From: Candidatus Saccharimonadota bacterium
Lineage (GTDB): Bacteria > Patescibacteriota > Saccharimonadia > Saccharimonadales > Saccharimonadaceae
Direction: 5' to 3'
Assembly: GCA_017645955.1 (NCBI GenBank)
Contig: JAGCNM010000024.1
Coordinates: 1-42,340, forward strand
Length of the DNA: 42,340 nucleotides
Position 1 is the stretch's first letter. Each line of letters starts with the position of its first letter. Positions 14,700 to 41,975 of this stretch are shown here, in pieces. The translations under genes were made by a program, and so were the position numbers. Below the pieces are notes generated by a model, which searched no databases, was not told the origin of the DNA, and saw nothing but the letters and a program-made list of their open reading frames with translations.

Positions 14700-14719
14700 T
14701 TTAATAAGTGGAGGTGAAT

Positions 14720-17278
14720 GTGGAGAGATTATTAGATTATTTTGTACCAGAGAAATACGTCTTAGATTTATTGATTGATAAGCATGCAAAGACGATTTTA
14801 GGGAGAGTTGAGGTTTTTGGTAAGAGTAAGGCTGAAAATATTAAGTTTCACGCAGTTGCTTTATCTGTTGATGAGGTAATCGTAAATGGTAAAAAGACGG
14901 ATTTTGAAGTTAAAGATGGCATTTTAACGCTTTTTAAGGTACCTAGGAGTGATTTAGGGGTCGAAATAAGGTACCACGGCTCTCTTAATGAAAATATGGA
15001 AGGGGCGTATCTGTCGACTTATGAATATAATGGCAAAACTGAGACAATTGTCGCAACGCAGTTTGAAAGCCATTATGCAAGAGAAGCGTTTCCGTGTATT
15101 GATGAACCAGAAGCGAAAGCAGTATTCGAACTATCGATATCTATACCGGAGGATTCGGAAGATTTAGTTCTATCTAATATGCCAGAAGCCAAAGTTCAGT
15201 CTGGCGCGCTCCGTAATGCGCCGAATCAAAAGATTTTGCCTAATACGCCAGAACTAAAGTTTGATTCGGCGCCGCGTCGCTCGCGCCCGTCGCCACGGGG
15301 CGAGCGCGCTAATACTCGCGCTGGCGCGCTCCGTAATGCGCCGAATCAAACTTTAGCTTCTGACTTTAGGACAACTTTTTTCGAGCCGACGCCGAGGATG
15401 TCGACATATTTACTCGCGTTTGTAATTGGAAAATTTCATGGGAAGACGATTAAAAATGCGCATGGGGTGGAGATTACGACGTATTGTGCTTTGAATCAGG
15501 ATGTCGATTCGGTGGATTTTGCAAATGAAATTGCAGCGAAGTCACTAGAATTTTATGATGATAATTTTAAGATTCCGTATCCGTTAACAAAATTAGATCA
15601 AGTGGCTCTGCCGGATTTTGAGGCGGGGGCAATGGAAAACTGGGGGTTGGTGACTTACCGAGAATCAATGCTTCTTATCGGGAAGGCAGCGACACTTGGT
15701 GCTAAAAAAGCGGTGGCAATTACAGTCGCACACGAACTTTCGCATCAATGGTTTGGAGATTTAGTGACGATGAAGTGGTGGGATGATTTGTGGCTAAATG
15801 AGTCGTTTGCGAGCGTAATGGAATATTATGCGGTAGATGCAATTCATCCGGAATATAAGATTTTTGAGAGTTTTTTCACGTCGGATTGCTATGCGGCGTT
15901 ACTTAGAGATGCGCATCTCGGGGTACAGTCAGTACACCAAGATGTTAAGACGCCGGAAGAAATCGCGACGTTGTTCGACGGCGCGATTGTGTATGCAAAG
16001 GGGGCGAGACTGATACTCATGACAATCCGATTAATGGGTTGGGAGAATTTCTGTAAAGGAATTGCTGATTATTTTGAAAAGTTTAAGTATCAAAATACAG
16101 TCGGAGATGATTTGTGGGACAGTTTAAGGCCTTATGCGAATTTTGAACCGAAAGAACTAATTCATGCGTTTATCGATAAACCAGGTTATCCGGTTATTAC
16201 GAATGAAGGAGAGAATTTTAAGCAGTTTACCCAAAAAAGGTTTTTATTAGATGGGGAGCCGATTGAAGGGGAATCTTGGCCAATTCCGGAAGTGAAAGAG
16301 GATATGTCGGGGCATTACGTTTTGAATTTAAGCGAAGCAGAGTTTAAAGAAAGATTGGAAAAGTTTAGTGAATTAGGATTAGAAGAAAAGTTAAGACTTT
16401 TAATTGACCGAGACTTAATTACACAATCTGGGTTACAGAGTGCGGCGTCGCTTGTGCCGCTCGCTTTAGAGTTTAAAAATGAGGATGCGCCGGCGGTTTG
16501 GAATAAAATTTCGTCTCTGATTGGAAATTTGAAGATGTATTTTGATAGCGAGTCGGACGAAGAAAAGATGTTGAAGGAATATACATTTAAATTAGTTGAC
16601 CAGAAATTAAAAGAAGTGGGCATTAAGACAAGAGAAAATGATGATGAGGACACGATTCGTTTAAGAGCGAATTTGATGGGGCTAGATTACTTTGCGGAGG
16701 ATGTGGAACGATTTAAGGAACTGGCGAAAATGTATGATGCGGAGGCGGAAAAAATGGAGCCGGAAATACGGGAGGATATCTTAAGCGCGAAAATTTATTT
16801 AGAGCCGGAGATTACGGATGAATATATTGGAAAATATAAAACTGTGACAGACCCGGATATCAAGTTTGATTATTTGGCCTCAGTGTCATTAGTGAGGGAT
16901 GAAAAACAGTTAGCTAAAGTTGAAGCATTGCTGGGTGATTTAGAAACCGTAAAGTCACAGGATCAGCTATATCTATTTATCTATCTTTATCGAAACCCGA
17001 AATCTAAAGCGAGGGTTTTTGATTGGATGACGAAGAATTGGGATTTGATTAAAGAGAAGGGCGGAGAAAAAACGCTTAATGATTATCCGATGTTTACGGC
17101 TAGGCTTGCGCGAACAGAGGAAGAGTTAAAGAAATATGTTGAGTTTTTCGGGCCGATGAAAGACGAGCCGGTGGTTTCAAGAGCGATTTTGATTGGTGAG
17201 AATGAGATAAAGGCAAGAATAAAAATGATTAAAAAATACCGCAATGCGGTAGCTAACGAACTGAAGAAATATGTTTAA
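14720..17278 (+). CDS. M1-family zinc aminopeptidase with in-frame palindromic insert
   Basis: A gluzincin aminopeptidase that removes N-terminal residues from peptides, probably to use scavenged peptides. GAMENWG lies near 303-309 and the zinc site is HELSH at 338-342 with second ligand E361 in WLNES. The ERAP1-like C-terminal helical region follows, giving 852 residues, near normal for PepN-type enzymes. Around residues 157-212 an extra GC-rich stretch separates LSNMPEAK from the FEPTPRMSTYLLAF block; it contains GALRNAPNQ twice and is encoded by a palindromic element at 15200-15361. I use GTG at 14720 because GGAGG sits five bases upstream; GTG at 14708 is the alternative. It follows ftsH by 20 bases and ends three bases before tRNA-Leu. 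Confidence 0.92.
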   Translation: MERLLDYFVPEKYVLDLLIDKHAKTILGRVEVFGKSKAENIKFHAVALSVDEVIVNGKKTDFEVKDGILTLFKVPRSDLGVEIRYHGSLNENMEGAYLSTYEYNGKTETIVATQFESHYAREAFPCIDEPEAKAVFELSISIPEDSEDLVLSNMPEAKVQSGALRNAPNQKILPNTPELKFDSAPRRSRPSPRGERANTRAGALRNAPNQTLASDFRTTFFEPTPRMSTYLLAFVIGKFHGKTIKNAHGVEITTYCALNQDVDSVDFANEIAAKSLEFYDDNFKIPYPLTKLDQVALPDFEAGAMENWGLVTYRESMLLIGKAATLGAKKAVAITVAHELSHQWFGDLVTMKWWDDLWLNESFASVMEYYAVDAIHPEYKIFESFFTSDCYAALLRDAHLGVQSVHQDVKTPEEIATLFDGAIVYAKGARLILMTIRLMGWENFCKGIADYFEKFKYQNTVGDDLWDSLRPYANFEPKELIHAFIDKPGYPVITNEGENFKQFTQKRFLLDGEPIEGESWPIPEVKEDMSGHYVLNLSEAEFKERLEKFSELGLEEKLRLLIDRDLITQSGLQSAASLVPLALEFKNEDAPAVWNKISSLIGNLKMYFDSESDEEKMLKEYTFKLVDQKLKEVGIKTRENDDEDTIRLRANLMGLDYFAEDVERFKELAKMYDAEAEKMEPEIREDILSAKIYLEPEITDEYIGKYKTVTDPDIKFDYLASVSLVRDEKQLAKVEALLGDLETVKSQDQLYLFIYLYRNPKSKARVFDWMTKNWDLIKEKGGEKTLNDYPMFTARLARTEEELKKYVEFFGPMKDEPVVSRAILIGENEIKARIKMIKKYRNAVANELKKYV
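15200..15361. repeat. In-frame palindromic element inside the aminopeptidase gene
   Basis: A 30-bp direct repeat occurs at about 15200-15229 and 15322-15351. A 19-bp perfect inverted pair starts at about 15255 (CTAAAGTTTGATTCGGCGC) and 15338. Between them lies a GC-rich hairpin with CGCTCG and CGAGCG arms. The reading frame passes through without a stop. The base composition is unlike the AT-rich flanks, so it looks like a small inserted element. Confidence 0.75.
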
Positions 17279-36180: not shown

Positions 36181-37017
36181 ATGAAAAAAATTGAAAAACA
36201 GGTTAAATCATATCTTTATTATTGTGAGAGAGTCAGGAGGATGTCGGAAACGACAATTAATTTTAAAGAATATGTAATAAATGAATTTATAAGAGTTTCT
36301 AGGTTAGGAGATTTGAGAAGGCTGAATAATAAGACTTTTGATAAATGGGTTTCATACGAGATGAGGAAAGGGGTTTCGGCGCGCTCTGTAAACACTTATA
36401 AGGCGATTGTTTTGGCGATGGTGCGATATTTTGAAGATACCGGGATGAAAGTCCCTTTGAATTTTAAGTTGGTTCAAAGCTTAAATGAGGGGGAATTGAC
36501 AAGAAAATTTTACACAAAAGAAGACATTGAAAAGGTAATACGCTATGCGGATTTGATGACGGAATTAATGATTCGGATTATGTTCGAGACAGGGATGAGG
36601 ATTGCGGAGTTAACGAGGCTTAGAGTTTCAAATTTCGAGGGAAGAAAGGTAAAGTTTATTGGAAAGGGGCGGAAAGCGAGAGAGGCATATATTAGCGAGG
36701 AGACGCATAATGCATTAGAAATTTTTATAGGCAACTACAATATCCGGGATTATTTGTGGGGGTTTCAGGCTATGAACGGAGAGCCGCCTACAACTAATAC
36801 GATTAGGAATCGGTTAAAAACTGCGTTTGGGGAGGCTGGGTTTGAGGGGTTTTATCCGCATGCTTTAAGGCATTCTTTCGCGACAAATTTACAAATAAAG
36901 GGAGCGTCGGTAGTAGAGATAAAAGAAATGATGGGGCATGAATCAATTGCGACGACCGAAAGGTATCTACACGGATTCGATGGGAGGTTAGAAGAGTTAT
37001 TCGAAAAATATCGTTAA
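36181..37017 (+). CDS. Tyrosine recombinase (Xer/integrase family)
   Basis: A 278-residue site-specific recombinase. An N-terminal SAM-like core-binding domain (1-100) is followed by the catalytic domain with all six residues: R140 in GMRIAEL, K162 in GKGRK, H227 and R230 in HALRHSF, H253 in MMGHESI and the nucleophile Y262 in TERYLH. Length and form are close to XerC/XerD/XerA, so it could be the chromosome-dimer resolvase. It could instead act locally, since it adjoins two surface cassettes with a 51-bp inverted repeat between them. I start at ATG 36181; a TTG just before is less likely. Its stop overlaps the convergent DUF916-like gene by four bases. Confidence 0.9.
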   Translation: MKKIEKQVKSYLYYCERVRRMSETTINFKEYVINEFIRVSRLGDLRRLNNKTFDKWVSYEMRKGVSARSVNTYKAIVLAMVRYFEDTGMKVPLNFKLVQSLNEGELTRKFYTKEDIEKVIRYADLMTELMIRIMFETGMRIAELTRLRVSNFEGRKVKFIGKGRKAREAYISEETHNALEIFIGNYNIRDYLWGFQAMNGEPPTTNTIRNRLKTAFGEAGFEGFYPHALRHSFATNLQIKGASVVEIKEMMGHESIATTERYLHGFDGRLEELFEKYR

Positions 37018-37958
37018 TTATCCCTTTTGCGAGCTTTAAAACGAGTAATGAGCCAGAATATGATTAATACTAGGGCAAAGATGATGACGAAGAGTAGCCA
37101 GAGTGGGCACATGATAATGGTTTTTTCGATAATTGAGGTTTCGCCGAAGATTCTAACTATTTGTTTGGCGCGGAAGATGCCGACTGAAGGTAATTCACAG
37201 GTTTGAACATGGTATCTCTCGGTTTCCGGTAAGATTAAACTAGTTTCGGGCTTTTCTTCATTTGTACAGATCTCTTCATCGTTAAAGAGTGGCCAAACTT
37301 GGAAGATATATTCAGCGTCGGTATGTACGTTGCCATTATTTTTAACCATAGAAGAAGCCTGGAGCGGTCCGTTTAGGATGAATGAGGGAATGTTGTTCTC
37401 AGTGATGGTGCCTTCTTCGCGAGTCTCACCGGCGACTTCGGCGTAAATAATGGAGGCGAATTGGAATTTTTGATCAATAGATATACTTCCTTCTACCGGT
37501 TGGTTGCTTGTGGTTTCGTCGATAACTAGAATAGTTGCGTATTGACCGCCGCCGGGGGCATCTTCTGGGACTTCGATAGAGTAACCGATAGTTGTTTTTT
37601 CGCCTGGGGCTAAGGTACCGCCAGTATTGTCGAGCTTAATCCAGTTCATGATTTGATTGTAGCTTGTGACATTAATGTGACTAATAGAACCATAATCATC
37701 GTTTGATTCTTCGGTTTTAGATTGACTAAAGGAGCCGATTTCTACTGAGTATTTTAAATCGCGTGTGCTGTTGGTTGAGTTTGATACTAAAAGAGAATTA
37801 TTGTAGGTTTCGCCAGGCATGAGGATTATTTTTTGGTATGGGGGAGAGACTGTCATTGAGTTTGAATCGGCAAAGGTAATTCCGTTAATAATTCCTAGAT
37901 TAAGACAGATGGTTAGTATTCCGAATACTAGGGTTTTAATAAAGTGATTGTTTTTCAT
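37014..37958 (-). CDS. DUF916-like cell-surface protein, left cassette gene 3
   Basis: A 314-residue secreted protein kept in the membrane by its C-terminus. A signal peptide (1-30, ending ITFA) is followed by MTVSPPYQKIILMPGETYNN, Ig-like beta domains with APGEKTTIGYSIEVPEDAPGGGQYATI, and a second domain with VKNNGNVHTDAEYIFQVWPLF. A C-terminal membrane segment follows (about 284-306, in CPLWLLFVIIFAL) with a basic tail. This layout matches DUF916/DUF3324 proteins found with WxL surface proteins in Gram-positive bacteria. It is a paralogue of the protein at 41016. It starts with AAAAGGAGG a few bases upstream and follows the 190-residue gene by 25 bases. Confidence 0.82.
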   Translation of the reverse strand: MKNNHFIKTLVFGILTICLNLGIINGITFADSNSMTVSPPYQKIILMPGETYNNSLLVSNSTNSTRDLKYSVEIGSFSQSKTEESNDDYGSISHINVTSYNQIMNWIKLDNTGGTLAPGEKTTIGYSIEVPEDAPGGGQYATILVIDETTSNQPVEGSISIDQKFQFASIIYAEVAGETREEGTITENNIPSFILNGPLQASSMVKNNGNVHTDAEYIFQVWPLFNDEEICTNEEKPETSLILPETERYHVQTCELPSVGIFRAKQIVRIFGETSIIEKTIIMCPLWLLFVIIFALVLIIFWLITRFKARKRDN

Positions 37959-37983
37959 TGACCTCCTTTTAATGTCATTTTAT

Positions 37984-38556
37984 TTAATCATGGTTTTTAC
38001 AAGAAAAACCTTTTAATTCGTAAAACTTCTTAAAATCTTCTAAGGTAAAATCGCCGGTTTTTTTATATTCGTCGTCATTGATAAAAAATAATTTTGCGAC
38101 GGTTTGGTTAATCTTTTTCGTTTCAGCGTAAAGTGATATTACAAGTTTACTTTTATGAGATGAGAAGACGGGATTGAGTGTTTCTTGATATACTCCATTG
38201 GCGCTCATGTATTTATTGTAATCGGCGTGCATGGCAGCTTTTGCGCTTTCGGCGGCATCGTCAGAATTAAAAGTCCCGTCATAGCGATAAGACATTTCTT
38301 TAACTTTTTTATCTGTAAACATTATTTTAATGCTATGCGTGAATCTCTGTGCAGTTTTAGATGTGAAGAAAGGGCTGTTTGGGCTAGAAGAAGAGCATTC
38401 AAGAGACTCGTAATCGTTTGCTTTTGATTGGGTTGTTGTATAGGATTCTTTTTTAGAGGTTAAAAACCAAACGATTATTAGAATAATACCAACGATTAAT
38501 ATTAAAGAAATCGTTTCGACGATATACTTATGATTCTTTTTTCTTTTTTCAGACAT
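37984..38556 (-). CDS. Small membrane-anchored protein, left cassette gene 2
   Basis: A 190-residue protein with a basic N-terminus, a membrane segment (about 13-32) and an extracytoplasmic domain of about 150 residues. There is one cysteine near the start of the domain (LECSSS) and one at the C-terminus (GFSCKNHD). The protein at 40422 has the same layout and ends NFSCEITN, with shared features such as a helix AAESAKAAMHADY against SSEAKQAEAYAQADY, so the two are diverged paralogues. The two cysteines may form a disulfide. The function is unknown. A strong terminator separates it from the surface-protein gene upstream, so it should be expressed at a lower level. Confidence 0.7.
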   Translation of the reverse strand: MSEKRKKNHKYIVETISLILIVGIILIIVWFLTSKKESYTTTQSKANDYESLECSSSSPNSPFFTSKTAQRFTHSIKIMFTDKKVKEMSYRYDGTFNSDDAAESAKAAMHADYNKYMSANGVYQETLNPVFSSHKSKLVISLYAETKKINQTVAKLFFINDDEYKKTGDFTLEDFKKFYELKGFSCKNHD

Positions 38557-38588
38557 TTGATTTTACCTTATCTCTATTGTTTTTCTAT

Positions 38589-38619
38589 AAGAAAATCCCG
38601 GCCTACCCGGGATTTTCTT
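38589..38619. terminator. Intracassette terminator, left cassette
   Basis: A perfect 13-base stem (AAGAAAATCCCGG with CCGGGATTTTCTT) and five-base loop between genes 1 and 2 of the left cassette. It probably limits read-through from the surface-protein gene into the two anchored-protein genes. Confidence 0.8.
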
Positions 38620-38637
38620 ATTTTTAAATAACTTTCT

Positions 38638-39306
38638 TTAGCTGGCTGGGTTATAAAGGGTGTATTTAACAGCACCAGTATAAGTACCAGTATCCTGAGT
38701 TTGGTCTACATATACCTGATAGGTAATTGTGAAGGCATTAGCGAGGCTACCAGAACCAGTTACAATGTCAGCCTCAGTAGAAGGAACCGCTGCGTAGGCA
38801 TTGCTATAACCGGTAGCATAAGAAGCACCAGAAGCCGTAGCAATCTTGAATGCCCAGTTAGAAGTAGGACCACTTGTAGCTGTACCAGCGACGATTTGGT
38901 CAGTAGCATTAGCATTATAGAGATCATTATTGTTAGCACCAGCACCCGCGCCAACAGCAGTTAACTTCCAACCAGCTTCAGCACCAGCCCCAGCACCAGT
39001 GTTACAAGACACGTCGATGCTGTTATCAGCAGTTGTACCAGAAGTTTGATCAGCAGTACCACCAATATCAGTCCTAAGCTCACCGTTGTGCATTTCTACA
39101 GTGTAGCTGTTGGTAAGATGTGGAGCCGATCCATTACCACCAGTCGTAGAGTTGTTGTTTACGATTGTACAACCAGCTGGAATGTTGACATTTAATGTGT
39201 CAGTGATATCGCCAGCTGGAGTTGCTGCTGCAAATACTCCTGCGAATGGCAAAACTGCTAAACCAAGAGCCGCTACGCCCGCGCCAGCAATTATTGATTT
39301 TTTCAT
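38638..39306 (-). CDS. Secreted WxL-like surface protein, left cassette gene 1
   Basis: A 222-residue secreted protein with a clear signal peptide (AGVAALGLAVLPFAGVFA, cleavage near 26). The mature part is rich in Thr, Ala, Asn and Gly. It opens with DTLNVNIPAGCTI, has a second cysteine (DVSCNTG), and ends DTGTYTGAVKYTL, which resembles the end of WxL domains with YTL in place of WxL. No membrane anchor is present, so it may be held to the wall by partners such as the DUF916-like protein. It is a paralogue of the protein at 39732. Start and AGAGGAG site lie within the 51-bp conserved leader. Confidence 0.8.
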   Translation of the reverse strand: MKKSIIAGAGVAALGLAVLPFAGVFAAATPAGDITDTLNVNIPAGCTIVNNNSTTGGNGSAPHLTNSYTVEMHNGELRTDIGGTADQTSGTTADNSIDVSCNTGAGAGAEAGWKLTAVGAGAGANNNDLYNANATDQIVAGTATSGPTSNWAFKIATASGASYATGYSNAYAAVPSTEADIVTGSGSLANAFTITYQVYVDQTQDTGTYTGAVKYTLYNPAS

Positions 39307-39312
39307 ATTGAT

Positions 39313-39363
39313 TTTTTCTCCTCTGCAGTTTTAAGCAGAATTAATTTATATTTTGTGTTAAAT
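39313..39363 (-). repeat. 51-bp inverted repeat, left copy (conserved leader)
   Basis: It is 49/51 identical, in inverted orientation, to 39677-39727. It holds the last part of the left leader: ATTTAACACAAAATATAAAT, then a TCTGC/GCAGA hairpin (outer pair weaker in this copy) and the GAGGAG ribosome site. Confidence 0.9.
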
Positions 39364-39395
39364 ATAAAACGCTCTTTTGCATTAGAGATTTTCGT

Positions 39396-39401
39396 ATTAT
39401 A
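39396..39401 (-). promoter_or_regulatory. -10 box of the left surface-protein gene
   Basis: TATAAT on the minus strand, about 90 bases before the ATG at 39306. The -35 region is poor, so it looks weaker than the opposite promoter. Confidence 0.5.
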
Positions 39402-39455
39402 GGTAGGTTTAAAAGACTAGGTCTATATAGTTATAAAAACAGGGGAATGGATAAT

Positions 39456-39478
39456 AAAAAAACACCTATAAGTAGGTG
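39456..39478 (-). terminator. Terminator of the structured RNA
   Basis: CACCTA and TAGGTG form a six-base stem with a four-base loop, followed by seven T on the minus strand. Confidence 0.7.
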
Positions 39479-39545
39479 ATTTTGAGTGCTTGCTTCCAGA
39501 CTTAGGAGAATCCATGGTCGGTTTTAGAGTAAACCCTACAAGCAC
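39456..39545 (-). ncRNA. Candidate structured RNA or attenuator between the cassettes
   Basis: A minus-strand unit of about 90 nt. It begins at 39545 with GTGCTTG, which pairs with CAAGCAC (39487-39493 on the plus strand) to close a junction. Inside are a GGTTT/AAACC hairpin and a second irregular arm. It ends in a terminator at 39456-39478. GTAGG, just after the first strand of the closing stem, is complementary to CCTAC in the terminator's 5' arm, so an alternative antiterminator is possible. It may be a free sRNA or a riboswitch-like leader of the left cassette. I recognise no known RNA class. Confidence 0.5.
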
Positions 39546-39551
39546 ATTTAT

Positions 39552-39560
39552 ATCATATCA
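39552..39560 (-). promoter_or_regulatory. Extended -10 promoter of the structured RNA
   Basis: TGATATGAT on the minus strand ends six bases before the G that opens the closing stem of the candidate RNA, so the predicted transcript begins exactly with that stem. Confidence 0.5.
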
Positions 39561-39626
39561 AAGATGCAGCATAAGATAATGGTTGTGGAAAAGTTTAGAA
39601 AAAACTTAAATAAACATAAAAAATAC

Positions 39627-39655
39627 TTGACAATGTTATTGTGCTTATGTAAAAT
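39627..39655 (+). promoter_or_regulatory. Strong promoter of the right surface-protein gene
   Basis: A consensus TTGACA (39627-39632) and TAAAAT (39650-39655) are exactly 17 bases apart, driving a leader of about 70 bases before the ATG at 39732. Confidence 0.8.
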
Positions 39656-39676
39656 GGGAAATGTTAAAGGTTATAC

Positions 39677-39727
39677 ATTTAACACAAAATATAAATAATT
39701 TCTGCTTAAAACTGCAGAGGAGAAAAA
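39677..39727 (+). repeat. 51-bp inverted repeat, right copy (conserved leader)
   Basis: Inverted partner of 39313-39363, with two mismatches in 51. It contains TCTGC and GCAGA arms with an eight-base spacer, directly before the GAGGAG ribosome site. This could be an RNA hairpin near the ribosome site or a recombinase core site in DNA. Confidence 0.9.
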
Positions 39728-39731
39728 TAAT

Positions 39732-40325
39732 ATGAAAAAAATATTAGCAGGTGCCGGCGCGGTGGCTTTGGCTGCTTTGCCAATGGCTGGTGTATTTGCT
39801 CAAGATTTGAATGTGACTGATACTCTTCAGATCACTGTTAATTCGGCTTGTACGATAACGGAAGGAAGTACTACCGATGGACTTGACAACAAGGATACTA
39901 CTTATGCTGCTACGGTAGCGAACGGTGCGGAGGCAGATTTTAGTAGTACACATACTGGTACTCACGCTTTCCATGTAAATTGTAACAGCCAGGGTGGTTG
40001 GTCTTTCTCGGCTACGCCACAAAACCTTACTGGTTATGTCGCTGCCAATGACTCAACGACTAATGGTGATAACATTAACTTTGTAGCTTCGGGTAGTTAT
40101 GAGGCCAGTGGTGCTACTGGTATGTGGACTGCTGAGATTACGGCGCCAAGTGGTATTACGGTTACACAACCTTCTACGGCTGGAACTGCTAACACGGTGA
40201 TTAATGCTACTAACGCTCAGGCTGCTAATGTTGAAATCACCTCAGAATACCATGCCTATGTAGGTACCCAAACTACAGCAGGTTACTATGAAGGTACGAT
40301 TGCCTATACTTTGGCTGCTCTCTAA
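39732..40325 (+). CDS. Secreted WxL-like surface protein, right cassette gene 1
   Basis: A 197-residue secreted protein. The signal peptide (AGAGAVALAALPMAGVFA, cleavage near 23) is almost that of the left paralogue. The mature protein begins DLNVTDTLQITVNSACTI, has a second cysteine in HVNCNSQGGWSFS, is rich in Thr, Ala, Asn and Gly, and ends TAGYYEGTIAYTL. Conserved ends and a diverged middle suggest the two proteins share attachment and differ in what they show to the outside. It is driven by the strongest promoter of the region and followed by a stem-loop before gene 2. A major surface protein role is inference. Confidence 0.8.
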   Translation: MKKILAGAGAVALAALPMAGVFAQDLNVTDTLQITVNSACTITEGSTTDGLDNKDTTYAATVANGAEADFSSTHTGTHAFHVNCNSQGGWSFSATPQNLTGYVAANDSTTNGDNINFVASGSYEASGATGMWTAEITAPSGITVTQPSTAGTANTVINATNAQAANVEITSEYHAYVGTQTTAGYYEGTIAYTLAAL

Positions 40326-40345
40326 TCTTAATTGATTAGTATTAG

Positions 40346-40370
40346 TAATCCCCCTTTAACAGGGGGATTA
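40346..40370 (+). terminator. Intracassette stem-loop, right cassette
   Basis: TAATCCCCC and GGGGGATTA form a nine-base stem with a seven-base loop, in the same place as the left cassette terminator. The T-run is poor, so it may attenuate or protect the mRNA 3' end more than stop transcription. Confidence 0.6.
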
Positions 40371-40421
40371 TTGGTATGGTTTTTGTTGTGAAGCTATGTT
40401 ATCATTGAAGAAAGGAGATGA

Positions 40422-40982
40422 ATGGACAGTGAGAAGAAAAAAAGAATAAACTATGTTGTTTGTTTTCTTATTTTGATAATTGTTATAGTGTTATTGTTTT
40501 TGTTTTTATTGTTTAGTGGGAGAGAATCGGATGATATCAAGGTATCTTGGGAAGAAAAGAAGATAGGTTTAAAGTGCACTGATTCAACATTATTACATCC
40601 AGCTTTACGGGATTATACCCCAAAGTCACATACTAATACAATTATGGCGAATTTTGTTGACGACAAACTATCGGCTATTACTTTATACTATGTTGGGAAT
40701 TATAGTTCGTCATCAGAAGCAAAACAGGCAGAGGCATATGCTCAAGCAGATTATGGATTAATCTTAGCTAAAGAATACGGCGTCGATACAGAATCTTTCT
40801 CGCATTCTTTCATGATTGATGGAAACATAGTGAGCTTAACCATTACGGCAGAAAATGGTGATATTAGTGATAGGACGGCGCCGTATTTCTTATTGGAACA
40901 GAACAGATCTTTTCCGAAGAGCATGGATGGCGTAAAGCAACGGTATGAAGAGAGGAATTTCTCTTGTGAAATAACTAACTAG
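40422..40982 (+). CDS. Small membrane-anchored protein, right cassette gene 2
   Basis: A 186-residue protein with a basic N-terminus (SEKKKRIN), a very hydrophobic membrane segment (about 10-31) and an extracytoplasmic domain. It has one cysteine early in the domain (LKCTDST) and one at the C-terminus (NFSCEITN), as in the left paralogue. The middle contains ALRDYTPKSHTNTIMANF and SSSEAKQAEAYAQADYG. No enzyme motif is visible. The start has an AAAGGAG site. It overlaps no neighbour; gene 3 starts 33 bases downstream. A structural or assembly role with the surface and DUF916-like proteins is likely from conserved order only. Confidence 0.7.
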   Translation: MDSEKKKRINYVVCFLILIIVIVLLFLFLLFSGRESDDIKVSWEEKKIGLKCTDSTLLHPALRDYTPKSHTNTIMANFVDDKLSAITLYYVGNYSSSSEAKQAEAYAQADYGLILAKEYGVDTESFSHSFMIDGNIVSLTITAENGDISDRTAPYFLLEQNRSFPKSMDGVKQRYEERNFSCEITN

Positions 40983-41015
40983 ATGATACAATTAATATTA
41001 AATAAAGGAGGTAAA

Positions 41016-41975
41016 ATGACTTCGTTTAGAAGAGTCTTGTATGGATTGGTGGGGACGATAATAATGATGATTGGGGTATTTTTGTCTCAGGAACCGGTTT
41101 TGGCTTTTTCGGTGTCACCTATGAAACAGACTGTGTCTTTAGTTCCTGGTCAAACCTACTCAAATAGAGTAATAACTTCTTTGCCGCTAGACGCTGGCAA
41201 AGATATGCATTATGAGGTTTCGGTAGTACCATTTAAGGTGAATGACAAAGATAATAACTATAGTATTGACTTAAGTGGTGCAGATGAGCGGAATGAAATA
41301 GTTAAGTGGGTTTCGTTATCTGATGGAGTAAACACAGTAAAGAGCGGGGATGTCTTGACTGGGGAATTAGCTCCTGGGAAAAAGATTGATTTTATTTATA
41401 CCATTAATGTTCCTGAGTCCGTAATGGGTGGTGGTCAATACTTTGCAGTTTTAGTTAAATCAATTCCTAATTCGTCTGATGATGGTGACGAAAACTTAAT
41501 AATATCGGAGACATATTCAATTGCGTCTGTGGTGTATGCAGAATTACCTGGTGAAATTAAAATGGACGGGGCTTTAAAGGAGAATAATATAAATGGTTTT
41601 CTTCTTAACCCGCCAATAACAACGTCGTTTGTTGCTGAGAATACTGGGAATACGCATTTTGCTGTTACTTATTATTTGCAGGTTTATCCTCTGTTTTCTG
41701 ATGAGGAAATCTATACTAATGAAGAAAAGCCTTCAATGGATTATGTATTGCCTGAGACGTCGAGATACATTTCTCAAACCTGGGATGAAGCGCCGTCAAT
41801 CGGTATTTTTAAAGTAAGACAGACCGCTTATTATGATTTTGCAGAAGACAAACAAAGTGTAACGGAAAGAATTGTGATTATTTGCCCATTATGGCTATTA
41901 TTTATAGTTATTTTTGCGATAACGATGTTTGTTATGTGGCTGATTGCTAGGCTAAGAGCGCGCCGTAAAGAGTAG
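41016..41975 (+). CDS. DUF916-like cell-surface protein, right cassette gene 3
   Basis: A 319-residue secreted, C-terminally anchored protein, paralogue of the protein at 37014. A signal peptide (about 1-30, ending PVLAFS) is followed by VSPMKQTVSLVPGQTYSN, then LAPGKKIDFIYTINVPES and MGGGQYFAVLV, then FVAENTGNTHFAVTYYLQVYPLF. The C-terminal membrane segment starts at CPLWLLFIVIFAI, with a basic tail (RLRARRKE). The family match is DUF916/DUF3324 of WxL loci. I start at the ATG at 41016, which has AAAGGAGGT five bases upstream; an in-frame ATG at 40983 overlaps the end of gene 2's region and has no such site. Confidence 0.82.
   Translation: MTSFRRVLYGLVGTIIMMIGVFLSQEPVLAFSVSPMKQTVSLVPGQTYSNRVITSLPLDAGKDMHYEVSVVPFKVNDKDNNYSIDLSGADERNEIVKWVSLSDGVNTVKSGDVLTGELAPGKKIDFIYTINVPESVMGGGQYFAVLVKSIPNSSDDGDENLIISETYSIASVVYAELPGEIKMDGALKENNINGFLLNPPITTSFVAENTGNTHFAVTYYLQVYPLFSDEEIYTNEEKPSMDYVLPETSRYISQTWDEAPSIGIFKVRQTAYYDFAEDKQSVTERIVIICPLWLLFIVIFAITMFVMWLIARLRARRKE

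Follow-up and report, generated by a model that had tools for sequence, protein, structure and literature searches.

A 52-codon insert in an M1-family aminopeptidase gene of a Saccharibacteria genome probably belongs to a family of dispersed palindromic elements, non-coding in nature, that move or are copied around one Saccharibacteria genus. In this model, which we consider probable though by no means settled, the element is a dispersed palindrome resembling the Rickettsia palindromic elements (RPE), with a core of ~88 nt and with arms that fold-back template switching creates and keeps up. The stretch of DNA analysed (the window; 42,340 nucleotides) corresponds to contig 42 in a genome of 0.91 Mb that consists of 60 contigs.

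The insert-bearing gene (positions 14708 to 17278, + strand) is an ORF of 856 codons with 1z1w, ERAP1 and others as homologues in the PDB. In the alignment to Tricorn-interacting factor F3 (PDB 1z1w), which is the nearest solved homologue and insert-free, residues 165-216 are extra. They correspond to 15200 to 15355 on the + strand (156 bp; SGALRNAPNQKILPNTPELKFDSAPRRSRPSPRGERANTRAGALRNAPNQTL) and fall between the adjacent residues 143 and 144 of 1z1w. A sequence-only reading of this DNA had described a GC-rich insert of about 50 residues that keeps the frame and contains GALRNAPNQ twice. This description is borne out: the frame is open throughout all 856 codons, GC content is 0.60 locally as opposed to ~0.35-0.45 nearby, and both occurrences of the peptide are present, although the bounds given there, 15180-15365, were too wide. 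The same reading held that the insert interrupts a conserved part of the enzyme; more precisely, the insertion site lies directly after the conserved SNMP motif in a loop of variable length, where aligned relatives have 0 to ~30 residues. The alignment with relatives, which that reading had proposed as a check, shows that the insert is absent in most of them. The named relatives are Saccharibacteria whose assemblies stem mostly from the gut of sheep, goats and cattle. Among the relatives, only L057 and L062 (68% and 62% identity) have the same kind of element at this site, in both cases in the opposite orientation to the window copy. The predicted RNA fold of the insert region has a free energy of -86.2 kcal/mol (z = -6.6 relative to dinucleotide shuffles).

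The window copy is built from nested repeats, all given here on the + strand. The three structures named in the sequence-only reading were all recovered: a 30-bp direct repeat (15201 to 15230 and 15321 to 15350; 100% identical), a 19-bp perfect inverted repeat (left arm 15254 to 15272, right arm 15338 to 15356) and a GC-rich inner hairpin, P2 (15274 to 15309), with two bulged bases and a 4-nt loop, as indicated by the fold and by covarying pairs in the own-genome alignment. Both repeats exceed the codon-shuffled controls, in which the longest direct and inverted repeats among 300 shuffles of the region were 13 and 16, respectively. The covariance model R1 matches the core over 88 positions (15261 to 15348; 93.4 bits, E 1.7e-21), including a short hairpin, P3 (GCGC TGGC GCGC; 15318 to 15329). 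In local alignments, the host stretch encoding the SNMP motif (15165 to 15199) matches 15230-15272 as well as the reverse complement of 15338-15380, and judged from these alignments it is likely the parent of both other arm copies. A second, diverged direct copy of this stretch forms the outer left arm (15230 to 15259), and an inverted copy forms the outer right arm (15351 to 15380), which extends up to the conserved FEPTPRMSTYL segment and is likewise arranged in L057 and L062. Compared with these two relatives, the first copy of the 30-bp repeat is the right end of the element fused to the left arm with the core missing, and the second is the right end of the complete core. Because the first repeat thus combines a right end with a left arm, and because another left arm and then a complete core come after it, the window copy appears to have been rearranged by a partial tandem duplication, the first unit of which would have lost its core; this inference rests on the copy's own sequence and on the comparison with L062.

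The core is repeated and structurally conserved. A BLAST search identified ~10 further copies in the own genome, and ten own-genome cores, the window copy among them, share a consensus of 88 positions that comprises an outer stem, the long hairpin P2 with its two bulged bases and the short hairpin P3; the stretches TAATACTC and CTCCGTAAT of this consensus are conserved. Both sides have changed in 14 of the 25 core pairs in this alignment, and GC content is 0.75 in the core compared to 0.43 in the flanks. With R1, 14 copies were scored in the own 0.91-Mb genome, and 89 of 99 sampled genomes of this genus of ruminant-gut Saccharibacteria have copies, with a maximum of 37 per genome. The sequence-only reading had likened the insert to the in-frame palindromic elements of Rickettsia and had stated that an ordinary loop without other copies would refute this; these counts, together with the insert-free relatives, support the likeness. 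The core was found in only three of 122 genera of the order, all in one family, and is rare in the two genera other than the host's own. Genomes were searched with R1 within this phylum only; strong matches in the phylum sample were confined to that one family, and matches at E ~1e-5 in three distant families may be due to chance. The absence of a link to any known family, also stated in that reading, agrees with Rfam 15: a known structured RNA or ribozyme was rejected for the insert in the window, which has no match at the gathering score, and among the other core copies there was one chance hit only (E 0.21). Spread on phages or plasmids was rejected because there was no match in phage or plasmid records; three pattern matches to viral contigs are at the level of chance (13-14 bits). 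In another genus of the family (g8), R1-like elements occur as inverted pairs, at most a few hundred bp apart, and each element of these pairs has its own long stem (L350-L353).

In 51/76 of the copies examined, the surrounding frame stays open over 150 bp in either direction, and the core copies show a preference for one reading frame. The host genes in the own genome, named from sequence motifs, encode, among others, IscS, TGT, TatD, TruB, TrmD and MnmA, while a related variant core is present in LeuRS and at a second site in MnmA; intergenic copies include those after rplL and before infA. In insert-bearing IscS and TGT genes, the frame is open through the insert with zero internal stops, and an intron, intein or translational bypass element was therefore rejected. 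Presumably, the insert is translated as a spacer peptide. The element would be tolerated in essential genes when it is located in a surface loop of the protein with the frame kept; surface exposure is inferred here without a structure model. Depending on the species, the TGT, IscS and infA sites have unrelated cores or none. A second palindromic core family, of the TCGCTCGCGCCCGTCGTTACGGGGCTCGC type and likewise with locus-specific arms, is present in TGT (L214, L220 and L221) and IscS (L183 and L184), and in the own genome cores of this type are present in MnmA and LeuRS (L017 and L019). At least three more unrelated cores occur at those shared sites, e.g. L189, L193 and L218.

Core copies form the tip of a long stem, with a complementary extension of median ~45 bp in 75 copies and a median complementarity score of 16 compared to a null mean of 1.7, where the null includes some orthologous pairs. 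Identical cores carry unrelated arms: in 471 non-orthologous pairs with a core identity of >=0.9, arm identity was 0.53/0.52, i.e. at the random baseline of 0.52/0.53. Therefore, core and arms do not travel together. Instead, wherever their origin can be traced, the arms are flanking host DNA copied in inverted orientation. In the aminopeptidase gene, the right arm is such a copy of the SNMP-encoding stretch, of which a second direct copy lies inside the insert. Before infA, the hairpin is located between the stop codon of the upstream gene and the -35 box, and at most of the 19 filled sites the last codon of the upstream gene, its stop codon and the following bases recur in inverted form as the right arm. 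This inverted copy is in register and tracks the local codon; arm and flank share on average 13.0/16 matches versus 9.5 in cross-genome pairs, and 0/2000 permutations reached the observed value. Three infA sites (L311, L331 and L333) match the inverted flank poorly. In two sister genomes, the IscS site is empty in G060 and filled in G044, and the left arm of the filled site is homologous to the empty site. As far as the accessible parts of the compared literature allow us to say, such locus-specific, host-derived arms are a new feature. Two infA leaders, L329 and L282, have core-less 11-bp inverted duplications that resemble newborn or remnant hairpins.

In principle, the arms could be the target rather than the product if the core inserted only into pre-existing palindromes. 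A mini-hairpin is present at some empty sites, for instance L282 at infA and L249 in IscS, but these are equally well explained as remnants, most empty sites have no hairpin, and the arm pair in the window derives from one conserved coding motif. We regard this explanation as highly improbable. More difficult to set aside is transposition with a new footprint, in which a recombinase or polymerase inserts the core plus an inverted copy of the target flank in one event, such that later template switching would not be needed for creating the arms. Identical cores with wholly different arms from the inner boundary outward are as expected from such an event, and common machinery would also account for several unrelated cores behaving alike at shared sites. 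However, no candidate enzyme was found, with Y1/RAYT in only 2/60 genomes and not in the own genome; moreover, arm length varies widely between copies, and at L329, an infA site, an inverted duplication is present without any core. All in all, we judge one-event transposition unlikely. The related idea that the inverted flank copy is made during insertion by a dedicated mechanism common to unrelated cores, which would amount to an inverted target-site duplication and a new mode of mobility, remains doubtful but conceivable. A miniature inverted-repeat element (MITE) of a DNA transposon was rejected, since only 4-8 bp of the ends are common to copies while the outer arms are unique, and since the flanking duplication is inverted and not direct.

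Between species, the arms at one site have diverged, yet within each species they remain complementary. At the orthologous insertion in IscS, 93.9% of cells are paired across eight species despite their differing arms, compared to 80.2% in shuffled and 33-49% in slid controls; arm covariation is 0.429 versus 0.189 when shuffled. Such upkeep could also be brought about by selection on RNA, which would keep the hairpins as terminators in intergenic regions and as mRNA structure within genes, with the arms evolving by ordinary compensatory substitution. The covarying core pairs are compatible with this, as are the intergenic copies after rplL and before infA, in which A-rich left and U-rich right arms resemble intrinsic terminators. 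By contrast, terminators would be harmful in IscS, TGT or LeuRS, and the copying of a neighbour's stop codon in register is left unexplained. Also, sense-strand arm mispairs in 46 coding copies comprise 75 G.U and 87 A.C; because G.U would be expected to be the more frequent mispair if an RNA stem were under selection, the lack of a G.U excess suggests that the arms are equalised as DNA. On this evidence, we consider RNA selection quite unlikely. Nevertheless, in intergenic regions, for instance before infA, A/T-rich complementary arms could also be favoured by selection for a terminator hairpin, and this counts against the fold-back model.

Known effects of template switching are the formation and upkeep of hairpins (PMC8794818) and the inversion of spacers (PMC8604942). 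The opposite orientations of the element at the same site in L057, L062 and L187 fit such a spacer flip (PMC8604942). The criteria for inverted repeats made by template switching are met in that one arm is the inverted adjacent ancestral sequence and the arms are homogenised. In the fold-back model, a replicating strand would fold back at the hairpin as soon as a site has a core whose short ends are complementary. The folded-back strand would then copy one flank, and the other flank would become its inverted copy; through repeated events of this kind, the structure is inferred to become longer and more homogeneous and, occasionally, to flip. Without the hairpin nuclease SbcD, such long palindromes can probably persist: SbcD belongs to the complex by which hairpins of this type are removed in E. 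coli (PMC3733652), and no match over the cut-off was detected in any of 60 genomes of the genus (0/60). RNase III is near-universal in the same sample (57/60), though both DNA and mRNA often contain long hairpins. Thus, absence of RNase III was rejected as the cause of tolerated long mRNA stems; with the enzyme present, these stems should be costly, and the model does not address this cost. The weakest part of the fold-back model is the step that brings the core to a new site, which is unexplained. A Y1/RAYT transposase was rejected as the mobiliser because PF01797 is absent from the own genome, although it was detected in control genomes. No insertion event was caught at the strain level; therefore, it is difficult to tell for a particular site whether an element was gained or lost, and in L197 the IscS site could be empty as a result of precise excision.

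In-frame palindromes in essential genes have so far been an oddity of Rickettsia and Wolbachia, and their mechanism is unsettled. According to the accessible parts of the sources, RPE-1 to RPE-3 and the Wolbachia elements (WPE) are palindromic repeats of 100-150 bp in reduced genomes, inserted in frame at solvent-exposed sites in unrelated housekeeping genes including tRNA-related enzymes (PMC10969869, PMC3767692). The Saccharibacteria insert is similar in size (156 bp), in having many copies per genome (14 in its own, up to 37), in being in frame in genes (51/76 open frames) and in its position, a gap between adjacent 1z1w residues with inferred surface exposure. It differs in its phylum and in that the mobile part is the ~88-nt core, the outer arms being locus-specific inverted host copies, a feature not described for RPE in those parts of the sources. 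Overall, the Saccharibacteria element works like RPE, but kinship to RPE is not shown.

REP and CGTC-tagged REP are also short repeated palindromes, some of which are intragenic and in frame; CGTC-tagged families have no dedicated transposase, and some REP dimers lie inside longer palindromes (PMC3733652). The Saccharibacteria element shares these traits insofar as it is a short repeated palindrome, in frame in genes, for which no dedicated transposase was found. However, CGTC-tagged REP are defined by an 8-9 bp stem starting with A-T pairs, a 4-5 nt loop and a CCA tail (PMC3733652), whereas the Saccharibacteria core is larger and three-stem, with neither such a stem nor a CCA tail. Also, the palindromes surrounding REP have a fixed consensus while those here are unique per locus, and unlike REP with RAYT (REPtron), there is no IS200/IS605-type Y1 transposase in the own genome. 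The likeness to template-switch (quasipalindrome) mutations lies in inverted repeats taken from neighbouring DNA, homogenised arms and a flipped spacer (PMC8794818, PMC8604942). However, these mutations are known as sporadic and small, whereas in Saccharibacteria they would have occurred repeatedly around a dispersed family, with arms of tens of bp and in essential genes. Finally, in Nematomorpha mitochondria, long inverted repeats similarly lie inside translated genes and both arms are translated, but the arms themselves encode conserved protein sequence and the available parts of the source do not mention a dispersed core (PMC6649704).

The same phenomenon is now seen in an unrelated phylum, in which 99 genomes provide several hundred copies, and orthologous sites are filled in some genomes and empty in others. 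Because the arms record what was copied, the origin and spread of palindromes in coding DNA become testable by comparative genomics. The finding also reveals a route for turning host-derived DNA into new, presumably translated peptide loops in housekeeping enzymes.

Elsewhere in the window, a single ORF at 554-1564 is an apparent fusion of RNase HII and a YraN-like nuclease domain. The region 37014-41975 contains two mirrored, divergent and apparently paralogous three-gene cassettes (37014-39306, - strand; 39732-41975, + strand).
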